In this document: one piece after another, positions 7,323-31,478 of the stretch
Layout: every line of letters begins with the position of its first letter
Numbering within the stretch: the first letter of the stretch is position 1
DNA from: Fimbriimonadaceae bacterium
GTDB taxonomy: Bacteria > Armatimonadota > UBA10988
DNA: 36,518 nt
Assembly (NCBI GenBank): GCA_020850355.1
Contig: JADZEX010000080.1
Coordinates: forward strand, 1 to 36,518
Direction: 5' to 3'
Position numbers and translations under genes: made by a program
Notes under the pieces: model-generated
Told to the model about the DNA's origin: nothing
The model's input: only the letters and a program-made list of their open reading frames with translations
Databases searched by the model: none

Positions 7323-9437
7323 TCACTCCCAGGCCGACTTGAGTTCCCAGACCGTGACGTCGACCACCCGCGCCGCGCCACCCCGCGCAAACAGCGACAG
7401 CCCCGTGACGTGCTCCGCGGCCACCGCCGCCGCCGGCAGGTAGAGCGAGCCGTCGCTGGCGAACAGCTCCAGCGAACCCCGGTCGGCCAGCAGGCGCAGT
7501 TGCAGCCGTCCGTCTCGCAGCGCCAGCGGCGCCTTCAGCCCGGCGAGCTGCAGCTCGCCGCTCGGCACATCGTAGAGCAGCGGCACGCCCCGGACAGCCA
7601 GGCCAACCTGCCGGGCCGTGCCGACGGCGATGTCGAGCGTCAGATCGAACAACTCGCCCTGCGCCGCGGCCAACGGATTGGCGTCACCTGGCGCCAATGG
7701 CAGGTTGGTCAGGTTGTGCCGGCGGCTGCGCAGGCTGGCGATCTCGGCGACTGGCGCGGCCTGCAGGCGCAGCCCGGCCGCGGTGCGACGGAGCGTCAGG
7801 CTCACCGGGAAGGTCATCTGCTGCCCCCACGGCGCGCCGGGGAAGGTGACCTGGCCCCAGGCGATCTGCACCCGCCGCCCATCGGCCGCCGGGACATCGC
7901 TGAAGGTCTGCGAGGCGTAGTAGCAGTTGCCGTGGTGGAACCGCTGCTGCGGCGCCTCCGGCGTGAAGGTCCGGCCGTCGAAGGCGCCGACCTGGTACGA
8001 TCCGTTGGCGCCGTAGACCACCCAGCGGCGTTCGCCCGGCTCGCCGTCGACCGGCAGTTCGAACAGCTCCGGGCACTCGTAGTAGCCGTCGATGCGGCTG
8101 CCCAGCTCCCAGGCCCGCAGGTCGGCCGAGGTATAGAAGGCAATGCACTGCCGCAGCGCGTCGCCGCTCTCCGGCTTGACTTCGTCGTAGACCGCCATCA
8201 CCCAGCGCTGCGTCGGCGCGTGCCACAGCAAGCGCGGGTCGCGCCCCTGATGCCGCACCGCCGGCTGGTCGGGCAGCTCGCGCCAGGTCCGCCCGCGGTC
8301 GACGCTGACCACCAGGCACTCCCCGCGGCCGGTCGACGTGTAGGCCGCCAGCAGCGCAGGTTGGCCCGGCGTGCCGAGCCCCGTCGTGTGCGGCGTGTCG
8401 ACCGCGGCGCTGCCGCTGAAGACCCAGTCGCCGAACCGCTGCGGGTAGAGCGCAATCGGCAGCTCCCGCCAATGCACCAGATCGCCAGAGACGGCGTGCC
8501 CCCAGTGCATGTTGCCCCACCCCGTGCCGTAGGGGTTGTGCTGGTAGAACAGATGCCACTCGCCCTGCAGATACACCAGGCCGTTCGGGTCGTTGTTCCA
8601 GCCGCGGCGGCTGCTGAAATGGAACTGCGGCCGCAGCGGCTCACGGTAGAGCTGCTCGCCGCCGACGATCTGGTCGGCCTCGACGATCTGCTCCCACGCC
8701 GTGCAGTCGGCCGGGTAGTCGGCAATCACCAGCTCGGTCGCCGCACCGCGCAGCGGCGCGAGGTCGACGAACATGTAGCAGAGCGGCTCGCCCGTGGCGA
8801 GTTCCATCTCAAACTCGCGGACCACCGTCTCGCCCTGCCGCAGCACCACCCGCTGCAGCGGCGCACCGGGCGCGTAGGGCAAGTTGAGGTACCGCCGAGC
8901 GGTGTCCACCGGGCGCCGTCGCGTGCTCACGGGCAACTCCTCGCACAGCATCAGGTGATCGACATTGAGGTGCCCCCATCCTCCTGTCGCGGCGTCGCGG
9001 ATTCGGACCCGGGCCTCGCGGCCCTGCAGGTCGGCCAGCTCCCAGTGTTCCCAGTGCAGCCGCTCGCTGCCCCCTGGCCGGTCGTTCGGCCCGGTCGCCG
9101 TGCGCACCACCTGACCGTCGACCAACAGCTCCAAAGCCAGCCGGGCCGGATCCTGGCCGCCACCAATCAGGAACGCCAGATACCGCCGCTCCAGCTTGAG
9201 AGCCGGCGACAGCAACTCGCCCGTGCTGGCATCACCGCCGCGGAAGCTGTTCACGAGCCCCCGCCCGCGGAATCCGCTGACCACCATCTGCCCCGGCAAC
9301 GTCCCCCGCGCCGGCCCGCTGCCGCAGGCCGTCCCGCGCACCGCCCACCCGGCGTAGTCGTCGCCCTCAAAGTCGAACAGCACCAGGTCGCCCGGCGCGT
9401 TCAGCAGCACCCAGCCGAGGCAGGCCGCCAGCAGCAT
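7323..9437 (-). CDS. GH32 levanase/fructosidase with N-terminal lectin-like domain
   Basis: 704 residues from the ATG at 9437, chosen because it opens a Sec-type hydrophobic signal (MLLAACLGWVLLNA). Residues 18-165 match the beta-sandwich often found ahead of levanase-type GH32 enzymes (FDFEG...W, LVNSF, FLIGGG, WGHLNVDH). A linker domain follows. The GH32 five-bladed propeller starts near 270, with nucleophile D283 (WNNDPNG), transition-state D400 (GRDPRL) and acid/base E454 (YYECPELF), then a C-terminal sandwich. It is an exo- or endo-acting beta-fructosidase, probably secreted. The length exceeds minimal GH32 (~500) because of the extra N-terminal domain. A TGC-TACCAT extended -10 at 9466-9461 may give it its own promoter. 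Confidence 0.9.
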   Translation of the reverse strand: MLLAACLGWVLLNAPGDLVLFDFEGDDYAGWAVRGTACGSGPARGTLPGQMVVSGFRGRGLVNSFRGGDASTGELLSPALKLERRYLAFLIGGGQDPARLALELLVDGQVVRTATGPNDRPGGSERLHWEHWELADLQGREARVRIRDAATGGWGHLNVDHLMLCEELPVSTRRRPVDTARRYLNLPYAPGAPLQRVVLRQGETVVREFEMELATGEPLCYMFVDLAPLRGAATELVIADYPADCTAWEQIVEADQIVGGEQLYREPLRPQFHFSSRRGWNNDPNGLVYLQGEWHLFYQHNPYGTGWGNMHWGHAVSGDLVHWRELPIALYPQRFGDWVFSGSAAVDTPHTTGLGTPGQPALLAAYTSTGRGECLVVSVDRGRTWRELPDQPAVRHQGRDPRLLWHAPTQRWVMAVYDEVKPESGDALRQCIAFYTSADLRAWELGSRIDGYYECPELFELPVDGEPGERRWVVYGANGSYQVGAFDGRTFTPEAPQQRFHHGNCYYASQTFSDVPAADGRRVQIAWGQVTFPGAPWGQQMTFPVSLTLRRTAAGLRLQAAPVAEIASLRSRRHNLTNLPLAPGDANPLAAAQGELFDLTLDIAVGTARQVGLAVRGVPLLYDVPSGELQLAGLKAPLALRDGRLQLRLLADRGSLELFASDGSLYLPAAAVAAEHVTGLSLFARGGAARVVDVTVWELKSAWE

Positions 9438-9613
9438 CAGGACAGGCTCCGCGTCGTTGGATGGTAGCACGCCTCCGAGACCGTTGACAGGACCCCGAGC
9501 GACGGCCCCCCGCGGGCGGCGGTCCGCAGCGCCAGCCGTTGCCCGCTCGCCGGGCGGCGTGGCACCCGCGACTGGGCACCTTTTGGCCACCAGTCGTCAC
9601 CATCTCGCTCCGG

Positions 9614-11170
9614 TCAGCCGGCGTTCTTGGTCATCTTGCCCTTGTCGGCGGCCTGGGCGTTGGCGCGGGCCTCGGCGGCGCGCTGCTGCATCTCTTCGAC
9701 GGTCTTGGTTTGCAGCCGCGCCGCGCCCTGAGTCTCAATCAGCTTGACCCGTGTCCCGTCGGCTTCCGCCGCCGCCAGGCGCGCCGCGGCCGCCGGCACT
9801 TCGGCGGCGTACTGCGGCAGCCAGGCCGCCTGGGCGACCAGCATCTGGTCGGTGAGCTGCCAGACCTCCTCAGGGTTGCAGACCGCGCCGGTCAACGGAT
9901 CGTGCAGCATCGCCAGCTTCAGCAGGTTGACGTCGCCGTGCACCGCGGCCTCGACCGCCAGCTTCTGCACCTGCACGCTGGCGTTGCAGGTCGCCGCGCA
10001 GCCCAGCGGCAGGTCGCCGACGACCGGCATGTTGATCCCGTTGCGGTCGACATAGCCCGGGATCTCCACCACGCAGCCGTCCGGCAGATTGGTGACGTGG
10101 CCGCGGTTGACGACATTGAAGTGCCCGCGATAGGGCCGCCCCGTCTCCAGCCCTTCGATGATGTAGCTGCCGTGCTCCTCGCTACGCTGCTCGGGCACGA
10201 AGCGCGGCGGGTCGGCCTGCAACCAGTTCGGGAAGTCCGTCTCGAACCAGTTGCGGCCCTCGGTGCAGACCCGCAGATAGCCGCCGGTCTCGCCGTTGAT
10301 CCAGGACGACAGATCGATCCAGCGCCCGATCTCGTCGACCCGCTTGCGGTACCAGGGCAGATACTCGCTGAGGTGCCCATTGCTCTCGGTGCTGTAGTAA
10401 CCGAACCGCCGCAGCACGTCGATCCGCACCTTCTCGGTCCGGCTGAACTGCGGATGCGCCGCGAACAGCTCGGGCAGCAGCGGAATCATGTCGCGGCCCT
10501 GCCACTGCACCTTGATGAACCAGGTCTGGTGGTTGATCCCCGCCGCCACCACATCGACATCACGCCGCTGCAGCGTGGCGTCGGCCGGCAGCAGCCCTTG
10601 CGCTTTGGCCCAGAGCTCGATGCACCGCGTGATCTGCCAATGCGCCCCCTGCACACCATGGCACAACCCGACGGTGTTGACGCCGCCATACTGGTTGCAG
10701 GCCCAGGTGTTGATGGCCATCGGGTTGCTGTAGTTGAGGAACAGCGCTCCCGGCCGGGCGACCTCGCGGATGTCGCGACAGATGTCGAGCAGCGCGATCG
10801 CGGTGCGCTGCCCATACAGGATGCCCCCGGCGCAGAGCGTGTCGCCGACGCACTGGTCGATGCCGTACATCAGCGGGATGTCGATGTCGGTCTGGAACGC
10901 CTCCAGTCCGCCCTGGCGAATCATGCAGATCACGTAGTCGGCGTCGGCCACGGCCCGCCGGCGGTCGGTGGTCGTCTCGACCTGCGCCGGCACCCCGTTC
11001 GCCGCGATGTCGCGCCGACAGAGCTGGCCGACCATATCGAGGTTGTCCGGCGAGATGTCCATCAGCGCGAAGGTCGTGTCCCCAAACTCGGGGACCGTCA
11101 GCAAATCGCCCATCAACCGCCGCGTGAAGCCAATCGACCCCGCCCCGATCATCGCGATGCGCAACGCCAT
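9614..11170 (-). CDS. GH4 NAD-dependent alpha-glycosidase (alpha-galactosidase-like)
   Basis: 518 residues from the ATG at 11170. The N-terminal Rossmann fold (IAMIGAGSIGFT, residues 5-16) binds NAD. NPM at 149-151 and the metal-coordinating pair C170-H171 (GLCHGVQG) are diagnostic of GH4, as is the later GINHQTWF. These enzymes use NAD+ and a divalent metal in an oxidation-elimination mechanism in the cytoplasm; there is no signal peptide. CHG, rather than the CNxP or CDMP of phospho-glycosidases, points to an unphosphorylated alpha-galactoside, alpha-glucoside or uronide. The Ala/Lys-rich tail makes it longer than MelA (~450). The alternative upstream start at 11215 lies in non-conserved sequence. 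Confidence 0.88.
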   Translation of the reverse strand: MALRIAMIGAGSIGFTRRLMGDLLTVPEFGDTTFALMDISPDNLDMVGQLCRRDIAANGVPAQVETTTDRRRAVADADYVICMIRQGGLEAFQTDIDIPLMYGIDQCVGDTLCAGGILYGQRTAIALLDICRDIREVARPGALFLNYSNPMAINTWACNQYGGVNTVGLCHGVQGAHWQITRCIELWAKAQGLLPADATLQRRDVDVVAAGINHQTWFIKVQWQGRDMIPLLPELFAAHPQFSRTEKVRIDVLRRFGYYSTESNGHLSEYLPWYRKRVDEIGRWIDLSSWINGETGGYLRVCTEGRNWFETDFPNWLQADPPRFVPEQRSEEHGSYIIEGLETGRPYRGHFNVVNRGHVTNLPDGCVVEIPGYVDRNGINMPVVGDLPLGCAATCNASVQVQKLAVEAAVHGDVNLLKLAMLHDPLTGAVCNPEEVWQLTDQMLVAQAAWLPQYAAEVPAAAARLAAAEADGTRVKLIETQGAARLQTKTVEEMQQRAAEARANAQAADKGKMTKNAG

Positions 11171-11299
11171 GCCAGCACTCCTGTGAGGCCCACCTGCCGG
11201 GCGGCGGGTGGCCAAGCTGTCGTCGGGTACATGGTACGCCGGCCGGAACCCACACCCTGCCAGACTTACATCCCCCGCGACGCACGCCCGGCCGTCGCG

Positions 11300-13520: not shown

Positions 13521-14651
13521 TCAATGCCGCTGCAGCAGCGTCAGGAGTTCCTGGTCCAGCTTGTGGCCCTGCCAGTCGACGTAGGCGATGTCCTGCCGGC
13601 CGGAATCGAGCAGTCCGAAGCTGCCGCGGAACTCCCACAGGCTGTAGCCGATGCCGTGCCCGGTGAGGATGTCGAGGACGGTCTCGAACCACTGCCAGAA
13701 GACCCGGTAGGGCGTCTTGTTGAAGGCGCCGCACTCGCCGCAGTGGACGCCGATGCCTTGCTGGATCAGCCCGGCCCACGGCGCGAAGTGCTGCTCGAGC
13801 AGGCTGCGGTCGCACTCGACGCTGCCGTCGGGCTTCCGCAACGGCCAGGTCGGCTCGACCATCTTGCTCTCGCGGTCGACCCACCCGGCGCGGTAGTGGC
13901 TGATCCGCGAGGGCCAGTAGGCATGGACGCTCTGGGCAACCTTGGCGGGGATCATCTCGTCGACGATCTTGCTGCCCGCGCCATAGCCGTCGATCAGAAT
14001 CAGCCGCTGCGGATCGATCGCCCGAATCGCCTCGGTGGCGCGCGTCATCACGCGGCGGTAGTCCTCGCGGGTCATGTAGTTGTCGCGCGGGCTGGGCGCC
14101 TCGTTGACCAGGTTGTAGCTCAACGCGGCTGGCGGCACCTCGCGGTAGCGCTTCGCGAAGACCTCCCAGTGGTGGACGAAAGCGTCCTCGGCCGCGGGGC
14201 TGCGCCACAGGCTGTAGGGCTCGCGCCCGCTGTCACGTTCGTTGATGCAGTAACCCGGCGCGCGGTGGAAGTTGAGGTTGAGGTGCAGCCCGTAGGCGCG
14301 GCAGCGCTCGACCGTCTGGTCGACCCGCGCCAACCCAGCCTCGCTGAGGCGCCCGACATTCTCGGGGCGCATCTTCTTGGTCTGCCGCCAGTCGCCCTCC
14401 ACCCACAGCCAATAGTCCATCGGCAGCCGCACGAAGTTGAAGCCCCAGTCGCGGATCCACCGCAGGTCGTCCTCGCGGACCTGCCCACTGCTGCGCTCCC
14501 CGGAGTCGAGCGACTGGAAGAAGTGGAGCAGGTTGAAGCCGCGCCAGCGCGGCAGCGGATTGGTCACCTTGGCCGGTCCTTCCTGCGCCCCGACGCGGTG
14601 CGCCACGGCCGCCAGGGCGGCGGTCTGCAGGACGTCGCGACGAGTCGGCAT
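13521..14651 (-). CDS. GH5 family glycoside hydrolase, Tat-exported
   Basis: 376 residues from the ATG at 14651. The start is fixed by a twin-arginine signal (MPTRRDVLQTAALAAVAHRVG). The GH5 TIM barrel has a conserved arginine (NFVRLPMDY), H129 region (LNLNFHRAPGY), acid/base E184 in YNLVNEAP and nucleophile E306 in GVHCGECG, then GYSLWEFRGSFG. Family members are endo-beta-glucanases and related enzymes; the exact specificity is not visible. It follows the anti-sigma gene by 18 bp and heads the minus-strand run GH5, GH-A-like, GH4, GH32, binding lipoprotein. Confidence 0.9.
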   Translation of the reverse strand: MPTRRDVLQTAALAAVAHRVGAQEGPAKVTNPLPRWRGFNLLHFFQSLDSGERSSGQVREDDLRWIRDWGFNFVRLPMDYWLWVEGDWRQTKKMRPENVGRLSEAGLARVDQTVERCRAYGLHLNLNFHRAPGYCINERDSGREPYSLWRSPAAEDAFVHHWEVFAKRYREVPPAALSYNLVNEAPSPRDNYMTREDYRRVMTRATEAIRAIDPQRLILIDGYGAGSKIVDEMIPAKVAQSVHAYWPSRISHYRAGWVDRESKMVEPTWPLRKPDGSVECDRSLLEQHFAPWAGLIQQGIGVHCGECGAFNKTPYRVFWQWFETVLDILTGHGIGYSLWEFRGSFGLLDSGRQDIAYVDWQGHKLDQELLTLLQRH

Positions 14652-14669
14652 CGGCCGCCTCCAGCGCAC

Positions 14670-15737
14670 TTAAGGCAGTGGCGCGCCGCCCAGCGCGGGG
14701 GCTTCGGCGACCGGCGAGGCGGCGAAGGTCAGGCGCACCGGCGGGGCCGGCTGGCCATTCAGGTCGAACGGCTCGGGGATCTCGCTGCTGCCCTCGCTGG
14801 CGGGGCTGGCCGCGGCCAGCACCACTGTCGGCGACGGCGCCACCTCGGGGGCCGGCGCGCTCGGCGCGGGGGTCGCGGCAGTGCGCTTCGGCACCTCGCG
14901 CAGGCCGCGGTTGCGCGGCAGCAGCCGCACCGCGGCGACACGCTCGGCGCGAGCCGCCGGGGCCAGCGCGGAGCGCACCTGGCGGTCGAGATCGTCGCGC
15001 TCACGCGGCGACCAGGAGCGCGGCGCGGTCCGCTCGCGCGGCTCGCGGCGCGGCGCCGCCACGGGGCGGGCGACCACGGCGGCCGGCCGAGGCACGCTGG
15101 CAGGCCGTGGCGGCACGATCCGGCGCGGTTCGTCCGGCGTCGTGTCGGCGGTCAGCGGGGCGCTGGCGACCAGCGAGCTGCTGGCGGCCGGCAGTGTCTG
15201 CGGCAGCTGGAGGGTGGTGGTGTAGCCCAGCAGCAGCACCACCGCAGTGGCACCGGCCCAGGCCAGACGCGGCGCGGCGGCCCAGCGGCGCGGCGGCGCC
15301 GGCTCGAGCCGGGCCAGGACCGCCGCCCGCAGCCCCGGTCGCGGCGTGACGGGCGGGAGCTGATGCAGCAGATCGACCGTCCGGCGAACCGCGGCGAGCC
15401 GCTCGGCAGCCGCCGGGTCGGCCACGAAAGCGGCCTGCAGCACGGCGCGGTCGGCGGCCGGCAGGCTGTTCTCGAGCAACTCACTGGTCCGCGCCAAGAG
15501 CGGATCGGCCGCGTCCAGCGCGGCGTTGACCGCCGCCCGCAAGGAGTCTGGCGCGGGCACCGCCGGCAGCCGCTCCAACAGGGCCACCGACCGTTCGAGG
15601 GCCTGGAGTTCGCGCTGTAGCAGCGCGTCGGCGGCGACCGCCTGCCGCAGCCGTTGGGCGACGGCCGGGGCCAGTTCATCGTTCACCAGGGCAGTCAACT
15701 GGGCGCGCAGCCGACTGCGGCGGAGCATCGCAAGCAT
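14670..15737 (-). CDS. Single-pass anti-sigma-like protein with duplicated cytoplasmic domain
   Basis: 355 residues. The cytoplasmic part holds two tandem ~67-residue copies. Copy 1 (5-75) ends LERSVALLERLPAVPAPDSLRAAV and copy 2 (79-145) ends VRRTVDLLHQLPPVTPRPGLRAAV. One membrane segment (about 157-172, AWAGATAVVLLLGY) is followed by a long Pro/Arg/Ala-rich extracytoplasmic region. No HxxxCxxC zinc motif is present. Position after an ECF sigma gene plus this topology suggests a membrane anti-sigma factor. A 90-bp gap separates it from the sigma gene, with no obvious strong promoter. The function is inferred from context. Confidence 0.6.
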   Translation of the reverse strand: MLAMLRRSRLRAQLTALVNDELAPAVAQRLRQAVAADALLQRELQALERSVALLERLPAVPAPDSLRAAVNAALDAADPLLARTSELLENSLPAADRAVLQAAFVADPAAAERLAAVRRTVDLLHQLPPVTPRPGLRAAVLARLEPAPPRRWAAAPRLAWAGATAVVLLLGYTTTLQLPQTLPAASSSLVASAPLTADTTPDEPRRIVPPRPASVPRPAAVVARPVAAPRREPRERTAPRSWSPRERDDLDRQVRSALAPAARAERVAAVRLLPRNRGLREVPKRTAATPAPSAPAPEVAPSPTVVLAAASPASEGSSEIPEPFDLNGQPAPPVRLTFAASPVAEAPALGGAPLP

Positions 15738-15827: not shown

Positions 15828-16457
15828 TCAGAGGTCGCCCAGCAGTTCCCCTTCGTCCTCCAGCTCCCGCGCCAGTTGCAGCCGGGCGCGGTTGAGTCGG
15901 GACTTGATGGTCCCCACGTTGGTCCGCAGGACCTCCGCGATCTCGTTGTAGCTGAAGCCCTCCAGGTCGTAGAGCACCAGCACATCGCGATGGTGCGGCT
16001 TCAGGCGGGCGATGGCGCGGCGCACGGCGGCGGCCTTTTCGGCCGACAGGTACTGCCCCTCGGGCGCCTCGCTATGGTCGGGCAGGCGGTCCAGCAGCGC
16101 CTCGGTGGTGCCGTCCTCGGTCTCACTGGCCTCGACGATCTGCGGTCGGCGCCGCTTCTTCTTCATCTCGTCGAGGCACAGGTTGTGGACGATGCGGTAG
16201 ACCCAGGTGGTCAGCGCCGAGCCACCGTGAAACTTCTGAATGCCGCGCCAGATCCGCAGGAAGGCCTCCTGCGAGACATCCCAGGCCTCGTCGGCGTCGC
16301 CCAGCAGGCGGTAGGCGAGGTTGTAGACCTTCGCCTGGTAGCGCTCGATCAGCTCGTTGAACGCCTCCCGGTCGCCGCGGCGGCAGCGGTCGATCAGGCG
16401 CGCCTCGTGCGGCTCGGGCAGGTTGTCGCCGTGCAGATCGCCGTCGGGCGGCGGCAT
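15828..16457 (-). CDS. ECF (RpoE-like) RNA polymerase sigma factor
   Basis: 209 residues. Region 2 is LIDRCRRGDREAFNELIERY, YNLAYRLLGDADEAWDVSQE and FLRIWRGI...TTWVYRIVHNLCLDEM. Region 4 is ARLKPHHRDVLVLYDLEGFS, then YNEIAEVLRTNVGTIKSRLNRAR. This is a standard group IV sigma factor. The ATG shares one base with the stop of the PASTA pseudokinase (TGATG), so translation is coupled. It probably answers an envelope signal and directs genes near or distant; its target promoter is not evident here. Confidence 0.93.
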   Translation of the reverse strand: MPPPDGDLHGDNLPEPHEARLIDRCRRGDREAFNELIERYQAKVYNLAYRLLGDADEAWDVSQEAFLRIWRGIQKFHGGSALTTWVYRIVHNLCLDEMKKKRRRPQIVEASETEDGTTEALLDRLPDHSEAPEGQYLSAEKAAAVRRAIARLKPHHRDVLVLYDLEGFSYNEIAEVLRTNVGTIKSRLNRARLQLARELEDEGELLGDL

Positions 16458-18199
16458 CAGAGCACCTTCGTCTCCACGCGGGTACCGTTCAGGTAGACCT
16501 CCACGACGACGTTCTGCCCCACGCCCTCGACGGTCTTCAGGACGCTGTCGCCGGCATACTTCAACTCGTTGTAGGCGACCTTCTCGCCTTCGTCGTCGCG
16601 CACCACGATTTTCACCCAGGTCAGCCGCGGCGATGACGGCACGGTGATCCGCACGCGCCCGACTTTCTTCACCTTGACGGCGGCCTTGGCCGCGGCGTCA
16701 CCCGGCGGCGCCGCCTTCCCCGGCTCGGTCACGGCGGCTTTGCCGGGCTCGGCCGGCGTCGCGCTGGGCGGCCCGCTGCTGACCTTCAGGTTGATCGCGC
16801 TGCCCGAAGCGACCTTGCGGCCGGGGCCGGGGTCCTGTTTGATCACATACCCCGGCGGCAGGGCGTCGTCGGCGACTTTCTGGGCGAACCCCAGCCGCAG
16901 CCCGAGCCGTTCGATGGTCCGCTCGGCGTCGCCCAGCGACTGGTCGGTCAGCCGCGGCACGGTCACCAGCTCGGCGCCGGTGCTGACGATGGCCTCGACG
17001 GTGCGCCCCGCCCGGACCTTGCGGCCGGCCTCGGGGCGAGTGCTGACGATGCACCCCTCGGGCACCGTCGGGCTGGCCTGGCGCAGCGTCACGGTGAACC
17101 CCAGACCGAGCGAGTCGACGAACAGGCCGCGGGCGTCGTCGACCTTCTTGCCGGTGACGTCGGGCACAATCACCTCGGCCGGGATACTGTCGACCAGCAC
17201 GCGGTAGGCGCCGACCCCGAGCACGGCCAGGGTGGTGCCCGAGACGGCGGCGGTGAAGAGCAGGATGAACAGGAAGCGGTAGCCCACCAGCAGGACCGTG
17301 ATCGGCCACGGCAGAGGCTTCAGAGGCACCTCGCGCCGGTCACGGACGCGTTGGCGGCGACGCTCGCGGGGCGAGCCGCCGCGCTCCGACTCGGCCTGCG
17401 GCCGGAGCTTCGCCAGGGCGTCGGCCGCCTGGGCCGCCGGGTAGCGATCATGCGGATCGCGCTTCAACATGCCCTCCAGAACCACGTCCAGCCCGGCTGG
17501 CAGCGCCGCCTTGAGCCGCGACGGCGCCTCGGGAACCGTCTCCGGCGCCAGCCGCCGACCGGTCAACTGCTCCCACAGCGCCACGCCAATGCTGTAGACG
17601 TCGCTGCCGGGGCTGGCGTTGTAGGACTCCCGCACTTCCGGCGCCAGGTAAACCTGGTGCTTCCGCCGCGCCGCCCAGACGCCCAGACAGTTCAACGTCT
17701 GCGCCGTGATGTCCCAATCACAGAACCACGGCCCCTGTTCCTGCAGCACGATATTGCCCGGATGCAGTTGCCCGTGACAGTGCCCCAGCTCGTGCCACTC
17801 GGCCACCGCATCGAGCAGCGCAATCCCGCAGGCCAACACGTCGTCGACGCTGCGCGGGCGCTCCATCCAGCGCTCCAACGTCGGCCCGGCGGCGTAGTCG
17901 CGCACCAGGAAGAACTGCTCCTGGTCGCGCCCGGTCTCCAAAATCGCCACGCTGGCCGGCAGCGGCGCGCTGGCCTGCTTCGCCAGAAGCTGCGTCCAGC
18001 GCCGCGCGGCGCGCTCGTCGGTGGCGTAGCGCGGGCGCAGCAGCTTCACAATCACCGGCGACTCGTGGACCTTATCGACCGCTCGCCAGGTGTCCAAGAC
18101 CGGCCCTTCGGCGAGCTGCGTCTGCAACTCATACCGAAACTTCAGCCGGCGCGGTCCACTCGGCTGCGACGACCCGCCGGTCCGCGCGGCGGGCCTCAT
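16457..18199 (-). CDS. PASTA-domain protein with Ser/Thr kinase fold lacking the catalytic Asp (pseudokinase)
   Basis: 580 residues from the ATG at 18199; the open frame runs further upstream but that part is antiparallel coding shadow of the GT2 gene. Residues 20-265 form a Hanks-type kinase fold with the ATP-site lysine K52 (VIVKLLRP), N149, D161 (DWD in place of DFG) and APE at 186-188. The HRD loop reads HGQLHPGN, with Q144 where the catalytic Asp should be (codon CAA, 17770-17768), and the glycine loop is degenerate. A membrane segment (~298-325) leads to two PASTA domains (~345-408 and ~412-475), a Pro/Ala linker and a C-terminal beta domain. It is likely a cell-wall or lipid-II-sensing scaffold rather than an active kinase. 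Confidence 0.85.
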   Translation of the reverse strand: MRPAARTGGSSQPSGPRRLKFRYELQTQLAEGPVLDTWRAVDKVHESPVIVKLLRPRYATDERAARRWTQLLAKQASAPLPASVAILETGRDQEQFFLVRDYAAGPTLERWMERPRSVDDVLACGIALLDAVAEWHELGHCHGQLHPGNIVLQEQGPWFCDWDITAQTLNCLGVWAARRKHQVYLAPEVRESYNASPGSDVYSIGVALWEQLTGRRLAPETVPEAPSRLKAALPAGLDVVLEGMLKRDPHDRYPAAQAADALAKLRPQAESERGGSPRERRRQRVRDRREVPLKPLPWPITVLLVGYRFLFILLFTAAVSGTTLAVLGVGAYRVLVDSIPAEVIVPDVTGKKVDDARGLFVDSLGLGFTVTLRQASPTVPEGCIVSTRPEAGRKVRAGRTVEAIVSTGAELVTVPRLTDQSLGDAERTIERLGLRLGFAQKVADDALPPGYVIKQDPGPGRKVASGSAINLKVSSGPPSATPAEPGKAAVTEPGKAAPPGDAAAKAAVKVKKVGRVRITVPSSPRLTWVKIVVRDDEGEKVAYNELKYAGDSVLKTVEGVGQNVVVEVYLNGTRVETKVL

Positions 18200-18915
18200 C
18201 CGCGGCCGCTCAGACGACCCCAGGCCCGTCGGAAGACCAGCCGCATCGCCTCGAAGATGATCCTCTTGCTGATCTTCGACTTCCCCCGCAGGCGGTCCTC
18301 GAAGATGATCGGCACCTGCGCGAAGCGGCAGCCCCGGCGAGTGAAGAGGTAGGTCATCTCGACCAGGTAGGAGTACCCGTCGACGGTCACCTGCCCAAAG
18401 TCGAAGTCGGCCAGGACGCTGGCGCGGTAGCAGCGGAAGCCCGAGGTGCAGTCGTCGACGCGCAGCCCGAGCAACGTGCGGGCGGTGAAGTTGGCGCCGC
18501 GCGAGAGGATCTGCCGCCCCAGGCCCCAGTTGCGGGTGCCCCCGCCGGCGACGTACCGCGAGCCGATGGTGACGTCGGCCTGCTCGCGCTCGGCGGTGGC
18601 GATCATCTCTGGCAGGTAGCGCGGGTGGTGCGAGAAGTCGGCATCCATGTGGATCACATAGTCCGGCTGCTGCTCCAGCGCCTGCCGCAGCCCGGCGATC
18701 TCGGCCGAGGCGAAGCCCAGCTTGCCAGCTCGGCGCAGCAGGTGCAGCCGCGGCCAGGTGGCCTGCAGTTCGGCCACCCGGTCGGACGTGCCGTCCGGCG
18801 AGTTGTCGTCGACGATCAACAGATGGAACTGCGGCTCGAGCGCCATCACCTCTGGAATCAGGTGCTCCAGGTTGTCCCGCTCGTTGTAAGTCGGGATCAC
18901 GATGTAGGCTTCCAC
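18196..18915 (-). CDS. Polyprenol-phosphate mannosyltransferase-like GT2
   Basis: 239 residues. Motifs: PTYNERDNL near the N-terminus, VDDNSPDGT, DADFSHHP (metal and nucleotide-sugar site), GSRY and GFRCYRA, then RGKSKIS near the end. This is the soluble DPM1 type without C-terminal membrane helices. It would transfer a hexose, probably mannose from GDP-mannose, onto polyprenyl phosphate at the cytoplasmic face. Its stop overlaps the pseudokinase start as ATGA, and the UbiA gene ends 9 bp upstream. That places lipid-linked sugar synthesis and envelope sensing in one transcription unit. Confidence 0.88.
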   Translation of the reverse strand: MEAYIVIPTYNERDNLEHLIPEVMALEPQFHLLIVDDNSPDGTSDRVAELQATWPRLHLLRRAGKLGFASAEIAGLRQALEQQPDYVIHMDADFSHHPRYLPEMIATAEREQADVTIGSRYVAGGGTRNWGLGRQILSRGANFTARTLLGLRVDDCTSGFRCYRASVLADFDFGQVTVDGYSYLVEMTYLFTRRGCRFAQVPIIFEDRLRGKSKISKRIIFEAMRLVFRRAWGRLSGRG

Positions 18916-18924: not shown

Positions 18925-19905
18925 CTAGAGACCACGCCCGCGCGTCACCGTCAGCATCACCACACCCCACAGCGTCAGGCTGACCAGCATCGACGGATCC
19001 GTGAAGATCCGCTCGGGATCCTGCCCGATGTCGCGCTTGTGGACCAGATAAAGATACCGGAAAACGCCGTACACCACGAACGGGATGGTGAACATCAGGC
19101 CATACCGCTCGCTCACCAGGTTGAGTTCCATCGGCCGCACGAAGGTGTACAGCGAGTAGCTCAGGATCACGGCCGTGCCGGCCATTTGGATCATCTGGTC
19201 GAGCAGCGCCTCGCTGTAGCCGTGCGCGGTCTGGTACTTCCGCAGCACCGCGCGCGTCTCACCGAGGTTCTCGGGGTCGCTGGCGGCCAGCTCGCCGCGG
19301 CGTTTGCAGAGCGCGATGAACAACGCCCCGAACAGCGTACAGACGATGATCCAGGGCGAGGGCGGCTCCGGCATCACCCAGCAGCCGGCCACCGCGCGCA
19401 CCACGAAGAGCACCGCGATGCTCAACACATCGACGATCGCGATGTTCTTCAGCAGGAAGCTGTAGGCGTTGGTCAGGACCAGGTAGAGCAGCGCGCAGTA
19501 CCCGAAGGCGAGCGTCGCCTCGGCCCGCAGCGCCAGGAACCAGGCGCCGGTCAGGGCGACCGCGAAACAGCCCAGCGCCAGCAGCACGGCGGCCTGGTAG
19601 GACAGCGCGCCAGAAGCAATCGGACGCAGGCACTTCTTCGGATGGCTGCGATCGGCCTCGATGTCATGCAGATCGTTGACCAGGTAGCCGCCTGAGGAGA
19701 GCAGACAGAACACCGCAAAGGCCGCCAGCGCCACGCCCAGGTCGGCCCAGTTGATCAGCTCGCGGATCCCCCCACCCGAGGTCGCGGCGTGCCACCGCCC
19801 GGTGAACGCCAGGCCGCCAAACAGCAGCACGTTCTTGACCCACTGCCGCGGCCGCAGGCTGCGCCAGATCGCTCGCCCCAAACTCATCGGTGGCGCGCTC
19901 GACAT
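18925..19905 (-). CDS. UbiA-family prenyltransferase, decaprenyl-phosphate phosphoribosyltransferase-like
   Basis: 326 residues with about eight or nine membrane helices. RPRQWVKNVLLFGGLAF opens the protein. The first Asp-rich motif is NDLHDIEADRSHPKKCLRP (residues 77-95) and the second is IAIVDVLSIAVLFVVRAVAG. The -HPKK-RPIASG signature matches UbiA members that make polyprenyl-phosphate phosphoribose rather than quinones. The expected product is a lipid-linked ribose or arabinose donor for envelope glycans. It starts 7 bp after the flavoprotein-like BMC gene, so it may be on the BMC transcript. Assignment to the DPPR subgroup is from motif memory. Confidence 0.82.
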   Translation of the reverse strand: MSSAPPMSLGRAIWRSLRPRQWVKNVLLFGGLAFTGRWHAATSGGGIRELINWADLGVALAAFAVFCLLSSGGYLVNDLHDIEADRSHPKKCLRPIASGALSYQAAVLLALGCFAVALTGAWFLALRAEATLAFGYCALLYLVLTNAYSFLLKNIAIVDVLSIAVLFVVRAVAGCWVMPEPPSPWIIVCTLFGALFIALCKRRGELAASDPENLGETRAVLRKYQTAHGYSEALLDQMIQMAGTAVILSYSLYTFVRPMELNLVSERYGLMFTIPFVVYGVFRYLYLVHKRDIGQDPERIFTDPSMLVSLTLWGVVMLTVTRGRGL

Positions 19906-19912: not shown

Positions 19913-20647
19913 TCAGTGCGGCAGCCGGCGCAGGATCACGCCCAGTTCGCGGGCCCGGTCGAGCGCCAGCGGGGTGACCAGCGCGCCAGCCGGCAGCACC
20001 AGCTCATCGCCCGCCGCCTCGACCTCCGCGGCGGTCACCAGGGCGCGGTTGCTGGCCGCGTTGTACCCCGGCGGGCCAGCCAGCGCCGTCTCGGCGGCCG
20101 CCGCCAACTGCGCTGCCGGCAACACCGTGGCGCCGAAGACTTCCAACCGCGCCACCGGCTCGGCCAGCGCGGCCCGCAACTGCGGTGTGGCGTCAGGGGC
20201 TTCCAAGAACAGCCCATCGGTGGCCAGCACCACCGGCTTGCCGCGGCGGAGGGCGTCGAACAGGAACCGCTCGCCCCACCGCTCGGGCATCGTCAGCGCC
20301 ACCCGCAACGCCGTGGCCCGGTCCAAGGTCGCCGCCAGCACCAGGTCGGCGCCCTTGGCGAAGGCGCGGGGACAGCCGGCGTCGACTTCGGTCTGAACCG
20401 TCGCCGCGCCGCCCCGCTCGCGGACGTAGGCCGGCGTGACCTGCGCCGTCTCGCCACTGGTCAGCACGTACTCCAGCCGCCAGCGGCTGGCCAGCGGCTT
20501 CAGCCCCGCCAGCACCAGATCGAGTCCGTGGTCGGTGTCGCTGACCAGCACCCGCACCCGCGGCCCGCGCGGAGCCGGGGGCTGCAACTGTGCCAGGACC
20601 GCCTGGACGGTGGCCTCGACCAGTTGCGCCAGCTCCTGCTCAGTCAC
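19913..20647 (-). CDS. Microcompartment-associated flavoprotein-like protein
   Basis: 244 residues starting with GTG, which overlaps the PduL stop as GTGA. Residues 1-21 form an amphipathic helix (MTEQELAQLVEATVQAVLAQ) like encapsulation peptides. A Pro-rich linker then leads to a Rossmann-like core (VRVLVSDTDHGLDLVLAG...ADLVLAATLDRATALRVAL, then GKPVVLATDGLFL). The last ~40 residues (LVTAAEVEAA, LPAGALVTPLALDRARELGV) resemble a tail found on several BMC enzymes. The best match I can recall is the flavoprotein/EutQ-like group seen in BMC loci. Flavin binding and the reaction are unproven. I infer it is a lumen enzyme. Confidence 0.62.
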   Translation of the reverse strand: MTEQELAQLVEATVQAVLAQLQPPAPRGPRVRVLVSDTDHGLDLVLAGLKPLASRWRLEYVLTSGETAQVTPAYVRERGGAATVQTEVDAGCPRAFAKGADLVLAATLDRATALRVALTMPERWGERFLFDALRRGKPVVLATDGLFLEAPDATPQLRAALAEPVARLEVFGATVLPAAQLAAAAETALAGPPGYNAASNRALVTAAEVEAAGDELVLPAGALVTPLALDRARELGVILRRLPH

Positions 20648-21279
20648 CGCACCATCCGCGCCGTCACCCCTTGGGTGATGTCGGCGGCATTGGCCTCGTC
20701 GGTGTCGAGATGCATTTCCAGCAGCGTGCCCTCGGCGATCCGGACGATCACGTTGCGTAGCAGGGCCCCGCGGGGTCCGTCGACCTCGACGTCAAGGCGG
20801 TCGCCGTTGGCGACGCCGAAGCGGGAGGCGCAGGCGGCGTCCATGTGGACGTGCCGCGCCGCGATGATCAGACCCTCGGGCAACTGCACCGACCCGCGTG
20901 GCCCGATCAGCGTCACCCCGGGTGTCCCGGCGATGTCGCCCGACAGCCGCAGCGGCGGATTCACGCCCAGCGCGAAGGCGTCGGTGCGGGCCAGCTCGAC
21001 CTGGCTGTGCGGCCGCAGCGGGAAGAGGATCCGCACGGCGTGCAGCGCGCGCTTCGCGGTCGCCACGGTGACGGTCTCGTTGGCGGCGTAGAAGCCCGGC
21101 TGGTACAGCTCGTTGCGCACGGTCAACTCGTAGCCCGGCCCGTAGAGCTGGTCCAGGTGCTCGCGACAGAGATGCACGTGACGCACGCTGACGCCGATCG
21201 GGATCGGCTCCGGCTCGCCCCGCAACTCGGCCAGCACCGCGGCCGTGACACGTCGGATCAGATCATCGCTGACAGCCAT
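20644..21279 (-). CDS. pduL: PduL phosphate acyltransferase (BMC)
   Basis: 211 residues. PduL converts acyl-CoA plus phosphate to acyl phosphate and recycles CoA inside microcompartments. Residues 5-20 (DDLIRRVTAAVLAELR) are an N-terminal encapsulation-peptide helix. Two PTAC beta-barrel halves follow, with zinc-ligand histidines in SVRHVHLC (H34, H36), ARHVHM (H143, H145) and H190. LFPLRPHSQVELARTDAF and the signature MHLDTDEANAAD are characteristic. The length matches known PduL. It is separated from the shell genes by a strong hairpin at 21312-21340. Confidence 0.95.
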   Translation of the reverse strand: MAVSDDLIRRVTAAVLAELRGEPEPIPIGVSVRHVHLCREHLDQLYGPGYELTVRNELYQPGFYAANETVTVATAKRALHAVRILFPLRPHSQVELARTDAFALGVNPPLRLSGDIAGTPGVTLIGPRGSVQLPEGLIIAARHVHMDAACASRFGVANGDRLDVEVDGPRGALLRNVIVRIAEGTLLEMHLDTDEANAADITQGVTARMVR

Positions 21280-21311
21280 CGGGGTCGGGCTTTCGGGTCA
21301 GGGACAGCCCG

Positions 21312-21340
21312 GCCGCGGACCCGTCGAGCGGGTCCGCGGC
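21312..21340 (-). other. Strong intra-operon hairpin between shell and pduL genes
   Basis: A perfect 12-bp inverted repeat (left arm 21312-21323, right arm 21329-21340) with loop TCGAG sits in the 86-bp gap between the BMC-H gene ending at 21366 and pduL. It has no T tract downstream, so it is not a canonical intrinsic terminator. It could attenuate transcription or mark mRNA processing, leaving upstream shell mRNA in excess over downstream enzyme mRNA. Confidence 0.65.
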
Positions 21341-21365
21341 GCGGTCCAGCGGCAGACCCCGGCGG

Positions 21366-21638
21366 CTAGCCAGGCAGGATCTTCGTCAGTTCCTCGTGCG
21401 GCCGGGCGATCACATGCACGCTGATCAGCTCCCCGACCTTGCGCGCCGCGGCGGCGCCGGCATCGGTCGCGGCCTTCACCGCGCCGACATCGCCGCGCAC
21501 CAGCACCGTGACGTACCCGCCGCCGATCTGCTCCTTGCCGACCAGATCGACATTCGCGGCTTTGACCATCGCGTCCGCGGCTTCGATGGCACCGACCAGA
21601 CCCTTGGTCTCGATCATGCCCAAAGCTTCACCAGCCAT
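21366..21638 (-). CDS. BMC-H hexameric shell protein, canonical pore
   Basis: 90 residues, a single BMC (Pfam 00936) domain of standard length. [20 protein letters not shown] opens it. K26 is the conserved interface lysine ([10 protein letters not shown]), and I38-V43 (IGGGYV) form the central pore loop. [19 protein letters not shown] and [14 protein letters not shown] complete the fold. Six copies would make one shell tile. It follows the other BMC-H gene by 30 bp. Confidence 0.96.
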
Positions 21639-21668
21639 GCTCGCCTCCGTATGGGTTCCAACGACCGA

Positions 21669-22004
21669 TCAGGCGCCGGCCGGGTCGGTCTTCTTGCGTC
21701 GCGTCGTGGCCGGCGGCGGGGTCGCCGCACCGCCGGTCATCTTTTCCAACCCCGCGGCCGGCCGGGGAATCAGATGCACCGAGATCAGTTGCCCGACCCG
21801 TCGGGCCTCGGCCGCGCCGGCTTCCATCGCCGCGGCCACCGCGGCGACATCGCCCTCGTAAAGGATGGTGGTCAGCGGGCTGCCCTTCATCGCAACGCGC
21901 CGCACCACCTTCACGCCGGCGGCCTTGGCCGCGGCATCGGCGGCGGCCAGGGCGCCGACCAGGCCCATCGTTTCGATCACGCCGATCGCCTGTTGATCTG
22001 CCAC
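21669..22004 (-). CDS. BMC-H shell protein with divergent pore loop and C-terminal tail
   Basis: 111 residues, GTG start. The SD AGGAGAGG overlaps the aldolase stop codon TAG. Residues 5-88 are a BMC domain (AIGVIETMGLVGALAAADAA, K27, EGDVAAVAAAMEAGAAEARR, LISVHLIPRP). Aligned on the GDV motif, the pore loop is K40-G41-S42-P43-L44 where its neighbour has IGGGY. This puts a lysine and a proline at or near the pore. A ~22-residue Pro/Thr/Lys-rich tail follows the fold. Two dissimilar hexamers suggest separate roles, such as selective metabolite passage. Confidence 0.93.
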   Translation of the reverse strand: MADQQAIGVIETMGLVGALAAADAAAKAAGVKVVRRVAMKGSPLTTILYEGDVAAVAAAMEAGAAEARRVGQLISVHLIPRPAAGLEKMTGGAATPPPATTRRKKTDPAGA

Positions 22005-22014
22005 GGCGCCTCTC

Positions 22015-22800
22015 CTAGCCCTGCTTCAGCTCGCGCACGACCCGCTCGGCAACCCGCTGCACCAACGCTTCGAGATCGCCGTCGGCACTGCCGGCCGGCC
22101 GTTGCGCCGGCTGGTTGCTGCCAGGGGCGAAGGTCAGGCACTCACGCGGGTAGCCGAAGCCGAGCTTGTCGCGCATCTGCCGCAGGTGCGGCAGGTCTTC
22201 GTCGGAGATCACGTTCTCCTTGCCCAGCAGCCGCGCGATGAAGGTGATCTGCGCCGACAGTTCCAAGGTCTCGGTGCGATAGTAGGCCTGGAAGATGTCC
22301 TTGCCCAGCGACAGGCTGCCGTGGTTCTGCAGCAGAAACACGTCATGGTCGCGAACGTAGGGGCGCACCGACTCCCCGAGCTGGGGCGTGCTGGGAGCGC
22401 CGTACGGCGCCAGCGGCACGTCACCCAGGGCGACCACGAACTCCGGCAACGTCGGCCGGTTGAAGCCCTCGCCATAGACCGCGAAACCGGTCGCATAGGG
22501 CGGATGGGCGTGCACCACGGCGCCGATGTCGCAGCGCTCGCGGTACATCGCCAGATGCATCAGAATCTCGCTGGACATCTTCAGATGCCCCTCGAGCTGC
22601 TTCCCGTCGAGGTCGACCACCACCAGCATGTCGGGCGTCAAGAAGCCCTTGCTGACCCCGGTCGGCGTCGCCAGCACGCGGTCGCCGTCGAGCCGCACGG
22701 AGAGGTTGCCGTCGTTGTAGGCGACGAAACCCTTCTGCCAGACGCGACGACCGACTTCGCAGATGTCCTGGCGGAGTTCGGTTTGGCTCTTCTCGAACAT
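22015..22800 (-). CDS. Class II aldolase with C-terminal encapsulation peptide
   Basis: 261 residues of the FucA/RhaD/AraD class II aldolase family. The zinc ligands are H97, H99 (VVHAHPPYAT) and H160 (QNHGSLSLG), and the catalytic glutamate is E78 (MSSEILMH). ATPTGVSKGFLTPDMLVVVD near residues 44-63 is family-typical. Such enzymes cleave fuculose- or rhamnulose-1-phosphate to DHAP and lactaldehyde. A flexible Pro/Ser/Gly linker (225-240) leads to an amphipathic helix (DLEALVQRVAERVVRELK, 242-259), a classic targeting tail. This strongly suggests it sits in the BMC lumen. The exact sugar is not known. Confidence 0.93.
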   Translation of the reverse strand: MFEKSQTELRQDICEVGRRVWQKGFVAYNDGNLSVRLDGDRVLATPTGVSKGFLTPDMLVVVDLDGKQLEGHLKMSSEILMHLAMYRERCDIGAVVHAHPPYATGFAVYGEGFNRPTLPEFVVALGDVPLAPYGAPSTPQLGESVRPYVRDHDVFLLQNHGSLSLGKDIFQAYYRTETLELSAQITFIARLLGKENVISDEDLPHLRQMRDKLGFGYPRECLTFAPGSNQPAQRPAGSADGDLEALVQRVAERVVRELKQG

Positions 22801-25749: not shown

Positions 25750-27567
25750 CTAACCCTCCGGAACCACCGGGAAGTAGACCGTGTAGGGCTCGTCGACGAC
25801 CTCGCAGAGCGGCCGGAAGCGCAGCCCCGTGGCCTGTCCGCGGACCCGCCAGCCGGACAGCCAGGTGCCCCACTGGCGGGTGTTGTCGGGCACCAGCAGG
25901 TTGGCGGGATCGCCCTGCAGGCGGCGCTCCTGGTCGCACAGCCCGGCCAGCAGCACCGGGCCGTCAAGAAACGCCAACGTGCCCGGCTCGTCCGGAATGG
26001 CGTGTGTCGTGAGCTGCTGCGGCAAGACGATCTGCAGCCGGTCGCCGGGCTGCCAGTGCCGGCGGATCGCCTGGAAGCTGCCGGGCGGGCCGGCGGCCAG
26101 GGGCGCGCCGTTGAGCGTCAGCCGCGGCGCGGCGCACCAGCCCGGCAGGCGGAGCTGCACCGTCGCCTGCTGCGGCGTGCCGCCGGTCACCCGCAGCTCG
26201 AACCATTGCCAGCTCGGGCGGTGCGTCTCGCCGGCGGGATGCGCGTTGTCGTCCGACGCCCCAGCGCTGGAGGTGGTGCTCAGTTCCAGCACCAACGACT
26301 CGCCGCCCGGGCTGGTCCAGGTCGCCCGACTGGGAATGTACTGACTCAGCACGGGTCCCTCGACAGCGCTCTGCCAGGCCCACTCGCCGTAGGCGGTGTG
26401 CGCCTGCACCAGCGTGCCGTGGCAACACCAGAACTGCTGCGTCGGGCTGCCCCAGGTCTTGCGGGCGCCGGCTTCGAGCGGCAGGAAGTAGGTGATCTGC
26501 CCGGTCTCGGGGTGCTGCTGCGCCAGAATGCCGTTGTAGAGGTTGCGCTCCAGGTAGTCGGCGTAGACCGCCTCGCCGGTCCAGCGGAGCAGGTAGTCAG
26601 CCAGCCGGATCAGGTTGTAGACGGTGCAATGCTCCTGGTTCTTGTCACCCCGTCGAGCAGCGTAGGCGAACGGCGGCGTCCAGATTTCGCCGCTGGTCTG
26701 GCCGCCCGTCGCGTAGGTCCCGCGGTGGGTCACGGCGCAGGCCCAGTAGGCCTCGACGATGTCCCGCCAACGGGCCTCGCCCGTCACCTCCCAGGCCCGC
26801 GCCGCGCCGTGGGCTTCGGGGATGGTGGTGTTGGCGTGCTGGTTGGTCAGCGCGTCTTCGCCGCGCAGCAGGCGGTCGAACAGCCGTGGACGGTCGTACC
26901 GCTCCAACAACTCGAGATGCGACGACTCGCCGGTCAGCCCGGCGAGTCCCGCCCAGACCTCCAACATGCCGCCGGTCTCGACGTCCAGAATGTCGTCCAG
27001 TTGGGCCCGCGTGAACCGGCCGGTCCAACGGTGGAACCAGCGCGCCGCCCGCACCAGGATGTCGAGCGCCTCGTCGCTGCCCGCGTAGACCGCGGCGTCG
27101 AGCAGCCCCATCAGGGTCTTGTGCATGGTGTAGTGCGGCGCCCAGACGCCCTGCCGCGGGACCCCATCGCCGGCGGTCCAGCGCAGGAACTTCTCGGGGA
27201 TCGCACCGACCCACTCCCCGCCGTTGCTGCGTTGGCAGCGGCCGAGGTCGCGGATCACCTGGTCCAGCCGCAGCTTCGCTTCGGCGTCGTCGGCACCGGC
27301 CCAGAGCTTCGCGCAGGCCGACATCCAGTGGCCCAGGAAGTGCCCCCGCACCTGGCAGGCCGGGCTCTCCCAGCCGCCGTGTGCCGACTCGTCGAGTTGG
27401 TGCCTCGCCTGGTAGAGTCCCGCCTCCAGGAGGTGGTTCTGCAACAGGTTGGCGTGCTGCAGACTGAGCACGTAGCGCCGGTTGACCGCCTGCCGCTGGC
27501 CGAACAGCCCACCCGTCAACCGGACCTGCGCCGGGCCCAGCGCCTGCCATTTCGGACGATCGGCCAT
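25750..27567 (-). CDS. GH127 family glycoside hydrolase (beta-L-arabinofuranosidase-like)
   Basis: 605 residues, an (alpha/alpha)6 barrel with C-terminal beta domains. The Cys3-Glu zinc site is readable: E294 (TSGEIWTPP), C314 (QEHCTVYN), and C381-C382 (FWCCHGT), where the first cysteine of the pair is the nucleophile in characterised enzymes. Near the N-terminus, GHFLGHWMSA and the later APHYTMHKTLMGL match the family. There is no signal peptide, so it acts in the cytoplasm on imported oligosaccharides, probably with terminal arabinofuranose or a related L-sugar. The gap from the GH5-like gene is 4 bp. Specificity beyond the family is inference. Confidence 0.9.
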   Translation of the reverse strand: MADRPKWQALGPAQVRLTGGLFGQRQAVNRRYVLSLQHANLLQNHLLEAGLYQARHQLDESAHGGWESPACQVRGHFLGHWMSACAKLWAGADDAEAKLRLDQVIRDLGRCQRSNGGEWVGAIPEKFLRWTAGDGVPRQGVWAPHYTMHKTLMGLLDAAVYAGSDEALDILVRAARWFHRWTGRFTRAQLDDILDVETGGMLEVWAGLAGLTGESSHLELLERYDRPRLFDRLLRGEDALTNQHANTTIPEAHGAARAWEVTGEARWRDIVEAYWACAVTHRGTYATGGQTSGEIWTPPFAYAARRGDKNQEHCTVYNLIRLADYLLRWTGEAVYADYLERNLYNGILAQQHPETGQITYFLPLEAGARKTWGSPTQQFWCCHGTLVQAHTAYGEWAWQSAVEGPVLSQYIPSRATWTSPGGESLVLELSTTSSAGASDDNAHPAGETHRPSWQWFELRVTGGTPQQATVQLRLPGWCAAPRLTLNGAPLAAGPPGSFQAIRRHWQPGDRLQIVLPQQLTTHAIPDEPGTLAFLDGPVLLAGLCDQERRLQGDPANLLVPDNTRQWGTWLSGWRVRGQATGLRFRPLCEVVDEPYTVYFPVVPEG

Positions 27568-29856: not shown

Positions 29857-30764
29857 GCCCAGCCATCCGGCGAGCGCCGCCCGTCTGCCGACGGTTCCGC
29901 CGGCGGCCCGCGCCGCAGGGCGACCCGCAGCGCGGCGGGGGCCAGCGGCAACAGCTCGTCGAGGCTGCGGTCGGCGGCCACCAGGCAGACGCGCAGGTCG
30001 CCCTCGGCCCAGGTCAGGTAGGTCAGCCCGCCGCGTTGCGCCGACTGGTAGCCGGGCCGGCGGGTGGGCGCGAAGCCAGCCAGGCGCACCTGCCCGGCCG
30101 GCGCCCGGAGCTCGTAGAGCGTCAGCGGCCGGCCGGCGCGGTCGCGCATCACGAACACCGCGACGTCGCGGCCAGGCACCGAGTGATTGCAGGTTGCACA
30201 GCCCCGCAGCCCGGCGTCGAGGGCGGCCAGATCCGGCGGCCGGACCGGGTAGCCCAGGCTCGCAGTCAAGCCGGCGGCCATCTGCTGCGGCGATTCGCTG
30301 CTCGCGGTGTGGGCGAACTTGGCCTGCCAGGCCGCGTGCGTCAGCTCCAGGTGGGCGGGGTCCAGCTCGAGCTGCGCCACCTGCGGGTGGGCGCCCGGCG
30401 GGTCCGTCCGCCCGCCATGGCTGAGCAGGGCCCAGACCGCCACCGCCGCGACCGCCGCCAGGCCGGCCAGCCACGAGCGCCGCGCCCGGCGAACCGGCCG
30501 GGCCCGCGGCGGGCCGCCCGGCCGCGGCGCCGGGGTGGCGTCCAGGGCCGTCTGCAGCCGCCCGAACAGTCCTGCCGGCAGCGGCAGGTTGTTGATCGCA
30601 CGGTGGGTCAGCCGCTGCACCGCGGCGAGCCTGGCGAGTTCGGCGCGGAGGCCCGCGTCGGCGGCCAGGGCCTGCTCCACGGCGGCCTGCTCGGTCGCGG
30701 TGAGCTCCCCGTCCAGCAGGGCCGAGAGCCGGTCGAAGTCGGGATGCGGCGCTGACTCAGCCAA
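29853..30764 (-). CDS. Membrane anti-sigma factor of the second ECF pair
   Basis: 303 residues. The N-terminal cytoplasmic domain (DFDRLSALLDGELTATEQAA, then AELARLAAVQRLTHR) has the fold of anti-sigma domains but no zinc HCC motif. One membrane segment (SWLAGLAAVAAVAVWALLS, about 96-114) leads to an extracytoplasmic domain with GCATCNHSV, PGRDVAVFVMRD and GGLTYLTWAEG. The start is TTG, overlapping the sigma factor stop by 8 bp. Sequestration of the neighbouring sigma is inferred from this coupled order. Confidence 0.78.
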   Translation of the reverse strand: MAESAPHPDFDRLSALLDGELTATEQAAVEQALAADAGLRAELARLAAVQRLTHRAINNLPLPAGLFGRLQTALDATPAPRPGGPPRARPVRRARRSWLAGLAAVAAVAVWALLSHGGRTDPPGAHPQVAQLELDPAHLELTHAAWQAKFAHTASSESPQQMAAGLTASLGYPVRPPDLAALDAGLRGCATCNHSVPGRDVAVFVMRDRAGRPLTLYELRAPAGQVRLAGFAPTRRPGYQSAQRGGLTYLTWAEGDLRVCLVAADRSLDELLPLAPAALRVALRRGPPAEPSADGRRSPDGWA

Positions 30765-31425: not shown

Positions 31426-31478
31426 CACTCCAACGGCTGCACCCACTCCGACGCTCCTTGGTGGACCCCCTGAAACCA

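Follow-up and report, generated by a model that had tools for sequence, protein, structure and literature searches.

PASTA kinases are the textbook bacterial link between the state of the cell wall and protein phosphorylation. According to the standard sequence definition, a kinase-fold protein counts as a pseudokinase when at least one of the beta3 lysine, the aspartate of the HRD motif and the aspartate of the DFG motif is lost, and a review of the bacterial pseudokinases arranges them in seven families, five pure and two mixed, with PASTA appearing only in the title of a reference (PMC12599244). The DYD kinases are characterized by a D-Y-D motif, the absence of the alphaC glutamate and an exchange of the beta3 lysine to arginine, and their second aspartate was proposed to pair with the beta3 residue (PMC12599244). 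In sigma factors of the extracytoplasmic function (ECF) group ECF43, uncharged residues including a conserved threonine stand in place of the acidic DxxD of sigma2.2 (PMC13147305). We found no described PASTA pseudokinase in the open-access full-text literature, which is not proof of absence. Here we analyzed a stretch of 36,518 nucleotides of a Fimbriimonadaceae bacterium (contig JADZEX010000080.1, in the following the window), which carries on its minus strand the gene of a PASTA receptor without the catalytic aspartate. We refer to gene and protein as KIN, to the genome of the window as G000 and to the other genomes of the same order as G001 to G004.

Results

KIN (16457-18199, minus strand, like all features of the locus described below) is an open reading frame (ORF) of 580 amino acids with Pfam matches to Pkinase (49 bits, cut-off 31.7) and to two PASTA domains. 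It has the architecture of a PASTA kinase, namely a kinase fold (residues 23-257, 17429-18133, by Pfam and Foldseek), a single transmembrane segment and extracellular PASTA repeats (16982-17173 and 16775-16966, located by a PF03793 search of its own genome). With the NCBIfam model NF033483 it reached 180 bits at a cut-off of 450. The catalytic loop reads H142-G-Q-L-H-P-G-N149 (17753-17776), and glutamine 144, encoded by CAA (17768-17770), takes the position of the catalytic aspartate. With the HRD aspartate lost, KIN is a pseudokinase under the standard sequence definition. The initial annotation had proposed this exchange together with a degenerate glycine loop and a retained ATP-site lysine, metal-binding aspartate and APE motif, and all of these were confirmed: the glycine loop reads AEGPVLDTW, and K52 (the beta3 lysine in the family alignment, 18044-18046), D161 and APE are present. 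Beyond that annotation, we observed that N149 is kept, the DFG position is D161-W162-D163 (17711-17719), the alphaC glutamate is Leu71 in the alignment, the lysine of the catalytic loop is histidine and the arginine of HRD is glycine. Thus, of the residues expected of an active PASTA kinase (lysine, alphaC glutamate, HRD aspartate and DFG aspartate), two are exchanged in KIN, as Leu71 and Gln144.

None of the four genomes of the order in which the site is readable has the HRD aspartate; the position is occupied by glutamine (G000), methionine (G001), arginine (G003) and histidine (G004). In the fifth genome, G002, only a C-terminal piece of KIN at a contig start is available and the site is unreadable. 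A sequencing error at Q144 is very unlikely because CAA is at least two base changes away from any aspartate codon and because the relatives in the order also lack the aspartate. Since the site reads Q, M, R or H, it is the loss of the aspartate that is conserved in the order and not the glutamine, which we rejected as a conserved functional residue. Hence, the alignment of homologues suggested by the initial annotation supported the loss but not a conserved glutamine; relatives retaining the aspartate, which it had named as an argument against its reading, were found outside the order only (see below). N149 and D161 were kept in the four readable genomes and the beta3 lysine in each of them, although that of G001 lies in a frame-shifted N-terminal piece. 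A D[WY]D motif combined with the lack of the alphaC glutamate was found in all three readable members of the window's own taxonomic family, and no other genome sampled from the phylum had D[WY]D.

The AlphaFold2 model, built on a family alignment of 40 sequences, reached a mean pLDDT (predicted local distance difference test) of 88.7 and showed a complete two-lobed kinase fold with no obvious deletion at the pocket. It further contains a long hydrophobic helix at about residues 298-337 (17189-17308), compatible with one transmembrane segment, the two PASTA domains and, at the C-terminus, an all-beta domain (residues 511-579, 16463-16669). The nearest structures to the kinase domain in Foldseek were PknB and PknA of Mycobacterium tuberculosis (best E 1.4e-18), and those nearest to the ectodomain were the PrkC ectodomain of Staphylococcus aureus and PASTA pairs of PknB. 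The alignment with the PrkC ectodomain (3py9) covers the whole KIN ectodomain including the C-terminal domain with an E-value of 1.4e-15. As the overall TM-score is only 0.29, the same domain arrangement in both ectodomains is likely rather than shown. The sequence of the C-terminal domain gave no match in a search against the PDB.

Of the 251 genomes of the phylum, 250 had matches to the KIN profile at E <= 1e-30, with canonical HRD PASTA kinases included among the matches. In a quick maximum-likelihood tree of 101 rows the canonical HRD rows were separated from the KIN family with a support of 95, while two rows with HGD grouped on the canonical side. By sequence, KIN belongs to a phylum-wide family of PASTA 'kinases' that is distinct from the canonical HRD PASTA kinases. 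In this family the arginine of HRD is glycine in 83 of 84 rows, the catalytic-loop lysine is absent in 82 of 84 and the alphaC glutamate in 70 of 84, the latter being present in all 15 canonical rows. The third glycine of the glycine loop was considered as a family marker as well and proved weak because canonical PASTA paralogs often carry alanine there. Of the 84 family members, 38 carry a W-S-P motif in the juxtamembrane region before the transmembrane helix, a motif that all 15 canonical HRD rows lack.

The residues used in the definition of pseudokinases are more widely kept: the HRD aspartate in 77 of 84 family rows, the DFG aspartate in 61 of 84 and the beta3 lysine in 71 of 83. Judged by their residues, family members with HGD, lysine and DFG could well have kinase activity. 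At least one of the three is missing in 30 of the 84 sampled rows. Parsimony on the tree required a minimum of 3 changes for the HRD aspartate, 7 for the DFG aspartate, 4 for the lysine and 10 for the intact state of all three; these counts are approximate because of the quick tree search, some long branches and a support of 89 for the deep position of the window's order. The three losses of the HRD aspartate fall in the window's order, which sits on a long branch, in G010 together with G037, and in G055. On this sequence evidence, catalytic residues disappeared independently in related lineages throughout the phylum, and elsewhere in the phylum PASTA domains and loci were kept despite such losses.

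We also searched 27 genomes carrying a degenerate family member for other PASTA proteins with PF03793. The degenerate protein was the sole PASTA protein found in 21 of them including G004 of the same order, and since some of the 27 genomes are incomplete, the lack of a second one is not certain in each case. Where lineages were examined in more detail, the additional HRD kinases mostly had no PASTA match, G055 being an exception. G000 itself encodes on contig C11 an operon of two FHA proteins, PP2C, RodA/FtsW, a penicillin-binding protein (PBP) and a PknB-type PASTA kinase which scores above the NCBIfam cut-off (484 versus 450 bits) and has an intact HRDIKPAN loop. A second degenerate PASTA protein with the loop HGTISPECL is encoded on contig C16 of this genome (L159, 4059-5855), followed by a fusion of a GT2 domain and a methyltransferase; its relative in G001 carries the loop HGTLCPESL.

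KIN is flanked upstream by a UbiA-family enzyme resembling decaprenyl-phosphate phosphoribosyltransferases (18925-19905; Pfam UbiA; NF008977 with 206 bits at a cut-off of 234) and by a glycosyltransferase of family 2 (GT2) resembling polyprenyl-phosphate-sugar synthases (18196-18915; Pfam Glycos_transf_2; best NCBIfam match PpgS, below cut-off). Downstream follow an ECF sigma factor gene (15828-16457; Pfam Sigma70_r2 and r4_2; TIGR02937 above cut-off) and the gene of a probable anti-sigma factor with one apparent transmembrane helix and without a zinc cysteine motif (14670-15737). The latter matched NF052375 with 29.5 bits, below the cut-off, and its position corresponds to that of the zf-HC2-like anti-sigma factors of relatives. 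The stop codon of KIN overlaps the start of the ECF gene in TGATG, which bears out the initially annotated translational coupling of this PASTA-fused pseudokinase with an ECF sigma gene, and an ATGA overlap couples KIN to the GT2 gene as well.

The gene order UbiA-GT2-KIN-ECF sigma was found in the order of the window and in two other families. KIN and ECF are adjacent in 12 genomes from 7 families, and 7 genomes from 4 families have UbiA-GT2 upstream of KIN. In the greater part of the phylum the locus consists of aroB, sometimes with a DUF362 gene, followed by KIN, rpe, ribD and further riboflavin genes. It recalls the prkC-rsgA-rpe neighbourhood in Bacillota; rsgA was not seen at the aroB-KIN-rpe loci. 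The two arrangements are linked by G035 and G072, which carry aroB upstream of UbiA, and in G014 KIN is preceded by mreB and mreC. Downstream of the ECF gene an anti-sigma factor with a zinc-finger motif was present in 8 relatives, whereas the motif is missing in G000 and G002. In G072 (L116, 5871-7721) the anti-sigma ORF has a match to a GspD-like N0 domain at its C-terminal end. All 12 ECFs of the KIN-ECF loci have an intact acidic sigma2.2 motif, so that the ECF at the KIN locus lacks this hallmark of ECF43 and needs no phospho-switch of that type, which agrees with a partner predicted not to phosphorylate.

Directly upstream of the UbiA-GT2-KIN operon the window contains a likely locus for a sugar-degrading microcompartment (20644-22800, minus strand) with a PduL-type phosphotransacylase (PTAC), a class II aldolase and a BMC-domain shell protein (21669-22004); another small protein with a similar sequence is encoded at 21366-21638. 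The PTAC, the aldolase-like ORF and an ORF of 244 amino acids are also in place in G001. Glycoside hydrolases of the GH32, GH4, GH5 and GH127 types flank the KIN locus (7323-9590, 9614-11215, 13521-14669 and 25750-27567, minus strand). Further away, an ORF of 494 amino acids (30757-32241, minus strand) has matches to sigma-70 regions 2 and 4, both confined to the C-terminal half.

Discussion

Taken together, we consider there to be about an even chance that KIN serves as a wall receptor or scaffold which does not phosphorylate and acts by protein contacts in an envelope module with UbiA, GT2 and the ECF/anti-sigma pair. From the residue losses, the predicted fold and the conserved gene order, which are read from the sequence, we infer its ligand, ATP binding, partners and mode of signalling. 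In this view KIN is built like a PASTA kinase and acts as a receptor in the membrane, but its kinase domain would have lost phosphotransfer. Wall material is probably bound by the outer PASTA and C-terminal domains, and the inner kinase-fold domain probably serves as a nucleotide-stabilized binding platform. As K52, N149 and D161 outlasted the catalytic base, KIN may still bind nucleotide, and D163, the second aspartate of DWD, may pair with K52 in place of the lost alphaC glutamate, as proposed for the DYD kinases. Because pocket residues are kept without the base and the ECF differs from the ECF43 type, we favour signalling by binding. Since KIN is encoded with UbiA, GT2 and the ECF/anti-sigma pair, the module most likely links envelope-sugar synthesis and an envelope-stress regulon to the state of the wall.

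Several points weigh against the proposed receptor. Loss of the HRD aspartate does not always abolish kinase activity, and contacts of KIN with the sigma factor, the anti-sigma factor, UbiA or GT2 are only predicted from gene order. Within the order the N-lobe is conserved less well than the remainder of the protein (29-38%), and compared with G004 the C-lobe is less conserved (31%) than the PASTA domains (48-57%). Moreover, the orthologue in G001 (G001:C126, L079, 842-2910) shows an apparent frameshift that places the N-lobe and the remainder in different frames, which may be an assembly error or real decay. Together with the long branch of the order, the N-lobe divergence and this frameshift would fit a decaying relic in which only the outer domains matter and the kinase domain drifts. 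However, the frame is open in G000, G003 and G004, the predicted fold of G000 is intact and KIN remains translationally coupled to both neighbours in the window. Between G000 and G001 there is little sign of a decaying kinase domain because the C-lobe (49%) is about as conserved as the PASTA domains (51-53%). We therefore regard a relic as improbable.

The main rival to the non-phosphorylating receptor is a role as substrate and adaptor similar to MviN, in which the canonical PknB encoded in G000 would phosphorylate KIN or its juxtamembrane tail, an FHA protein would dock and the kinase domain would be a regulated scaffold. The operon on contig C11 provides the FHA proteins and the intact kinase, and MviN acts in this manner in mycobacteria (PMC12599244). 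On the other hand, PF03793 found no second PASTA protein in G004 and many other lineages, so that a PknB partner seems not to be the rule, although most of those other lineages have HRD kinases without PASTA. We judge this role unlikely, if still the most serious competitor. A persisting ATP-dependent chemistry without the aspartate, either weak kinase activity or another transfer comparable to SelO (AMP) and SidJ (glutamate), would be in line with K52, N149 and D161 being retained throughout the order and with a predicted fold showing no obvious deletion around the pocket, and pseudokinases with other chemistry do exist (PMC12599244). Nevertheless, glycine loop, alphaC glutamate, HRD aspartate and catalytic-loop lysine are altered together, and the free variation between Q, M, R and H is unlike a re-used active-site residue, so that such chemistry appears distinctly unlikely, though slightly less so than a relic. 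We attach least weight of all to a phospho-switch in which KIN still is, or until recently was, a kinase that activates the adjacent ECF as in the ECF43 pairs PknS-EcfK and PknT-EcfP. Co-occurrence of a Hanks-type kinase and an ECF gene is a hallmark of ECF43 (PMC13147305), and HGD is kept in G035, G064, G072, G028, G060 and G014, all with the KIN-ECF order. This switch is disfavoured by the intact sigma2.2 motif, which is replaced by threonine in ECF43, by the zinc-finger-type anti-sigma factors of the 8 relatives and by the loss of the HRD aspartate in the whole order.

On a broader scale, we tentatively suggest, with rather more doubt than confidence, that across one phylum a PASTA wall receptor turned many times from a kinase into a phosphorylation-independent sensor, which is the sole PASTA protein in the genomes of several families and was rewired to an ECF sigma factor and lipid-linked-sugar enzymes in the window's order. 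If lineages use a PASTA receptor without phosphorylation, its binding role is separable from its enzyme role, and the repeated losses offer a natural test set for the kinase residues that are dispensable to the receptor.

Compared with PknB, PrkC and StkP, KIN shares the kinase fold, one transmembrane helix, extracellular PASTA domains and a C-terminal domain rich in beta structure like that of S. aureus PrkC, but it has lost the HRD aspartate, the alphaC glutamate, the HRD arginine and the catalytic-loop lysine and carries only two PASTA domains. The pseudokinase domain of MviN (ActPs3) likewise belongs to a membrane-linked bacterial protein in envelope lipid-carrier biology and serves as a functional analogy. 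MviN lost all three motifs and PASTA domains are not described for it, whereas KIN keeps the lysine, the asparagine and the metal-binding aspartate. The DYD kinases, a bacterial family of serine/threonine kinases, resemble KIN as membrane proteins without the alphaC glutamate and with DFG changed to D-W/Y-D; however, KIN has lysine instead of arginine in beta3 and lacks the HRD aspartate, which places it outside this group. As in the ECF43 pairs, a transmembrane Hanks-type protein is encoded beside an ECF sigma factor, but here the protein lacks the catalytic aspartate, the ECF keeps its acidic sigma2.2 motif and a probable anti-sigma factor is present.
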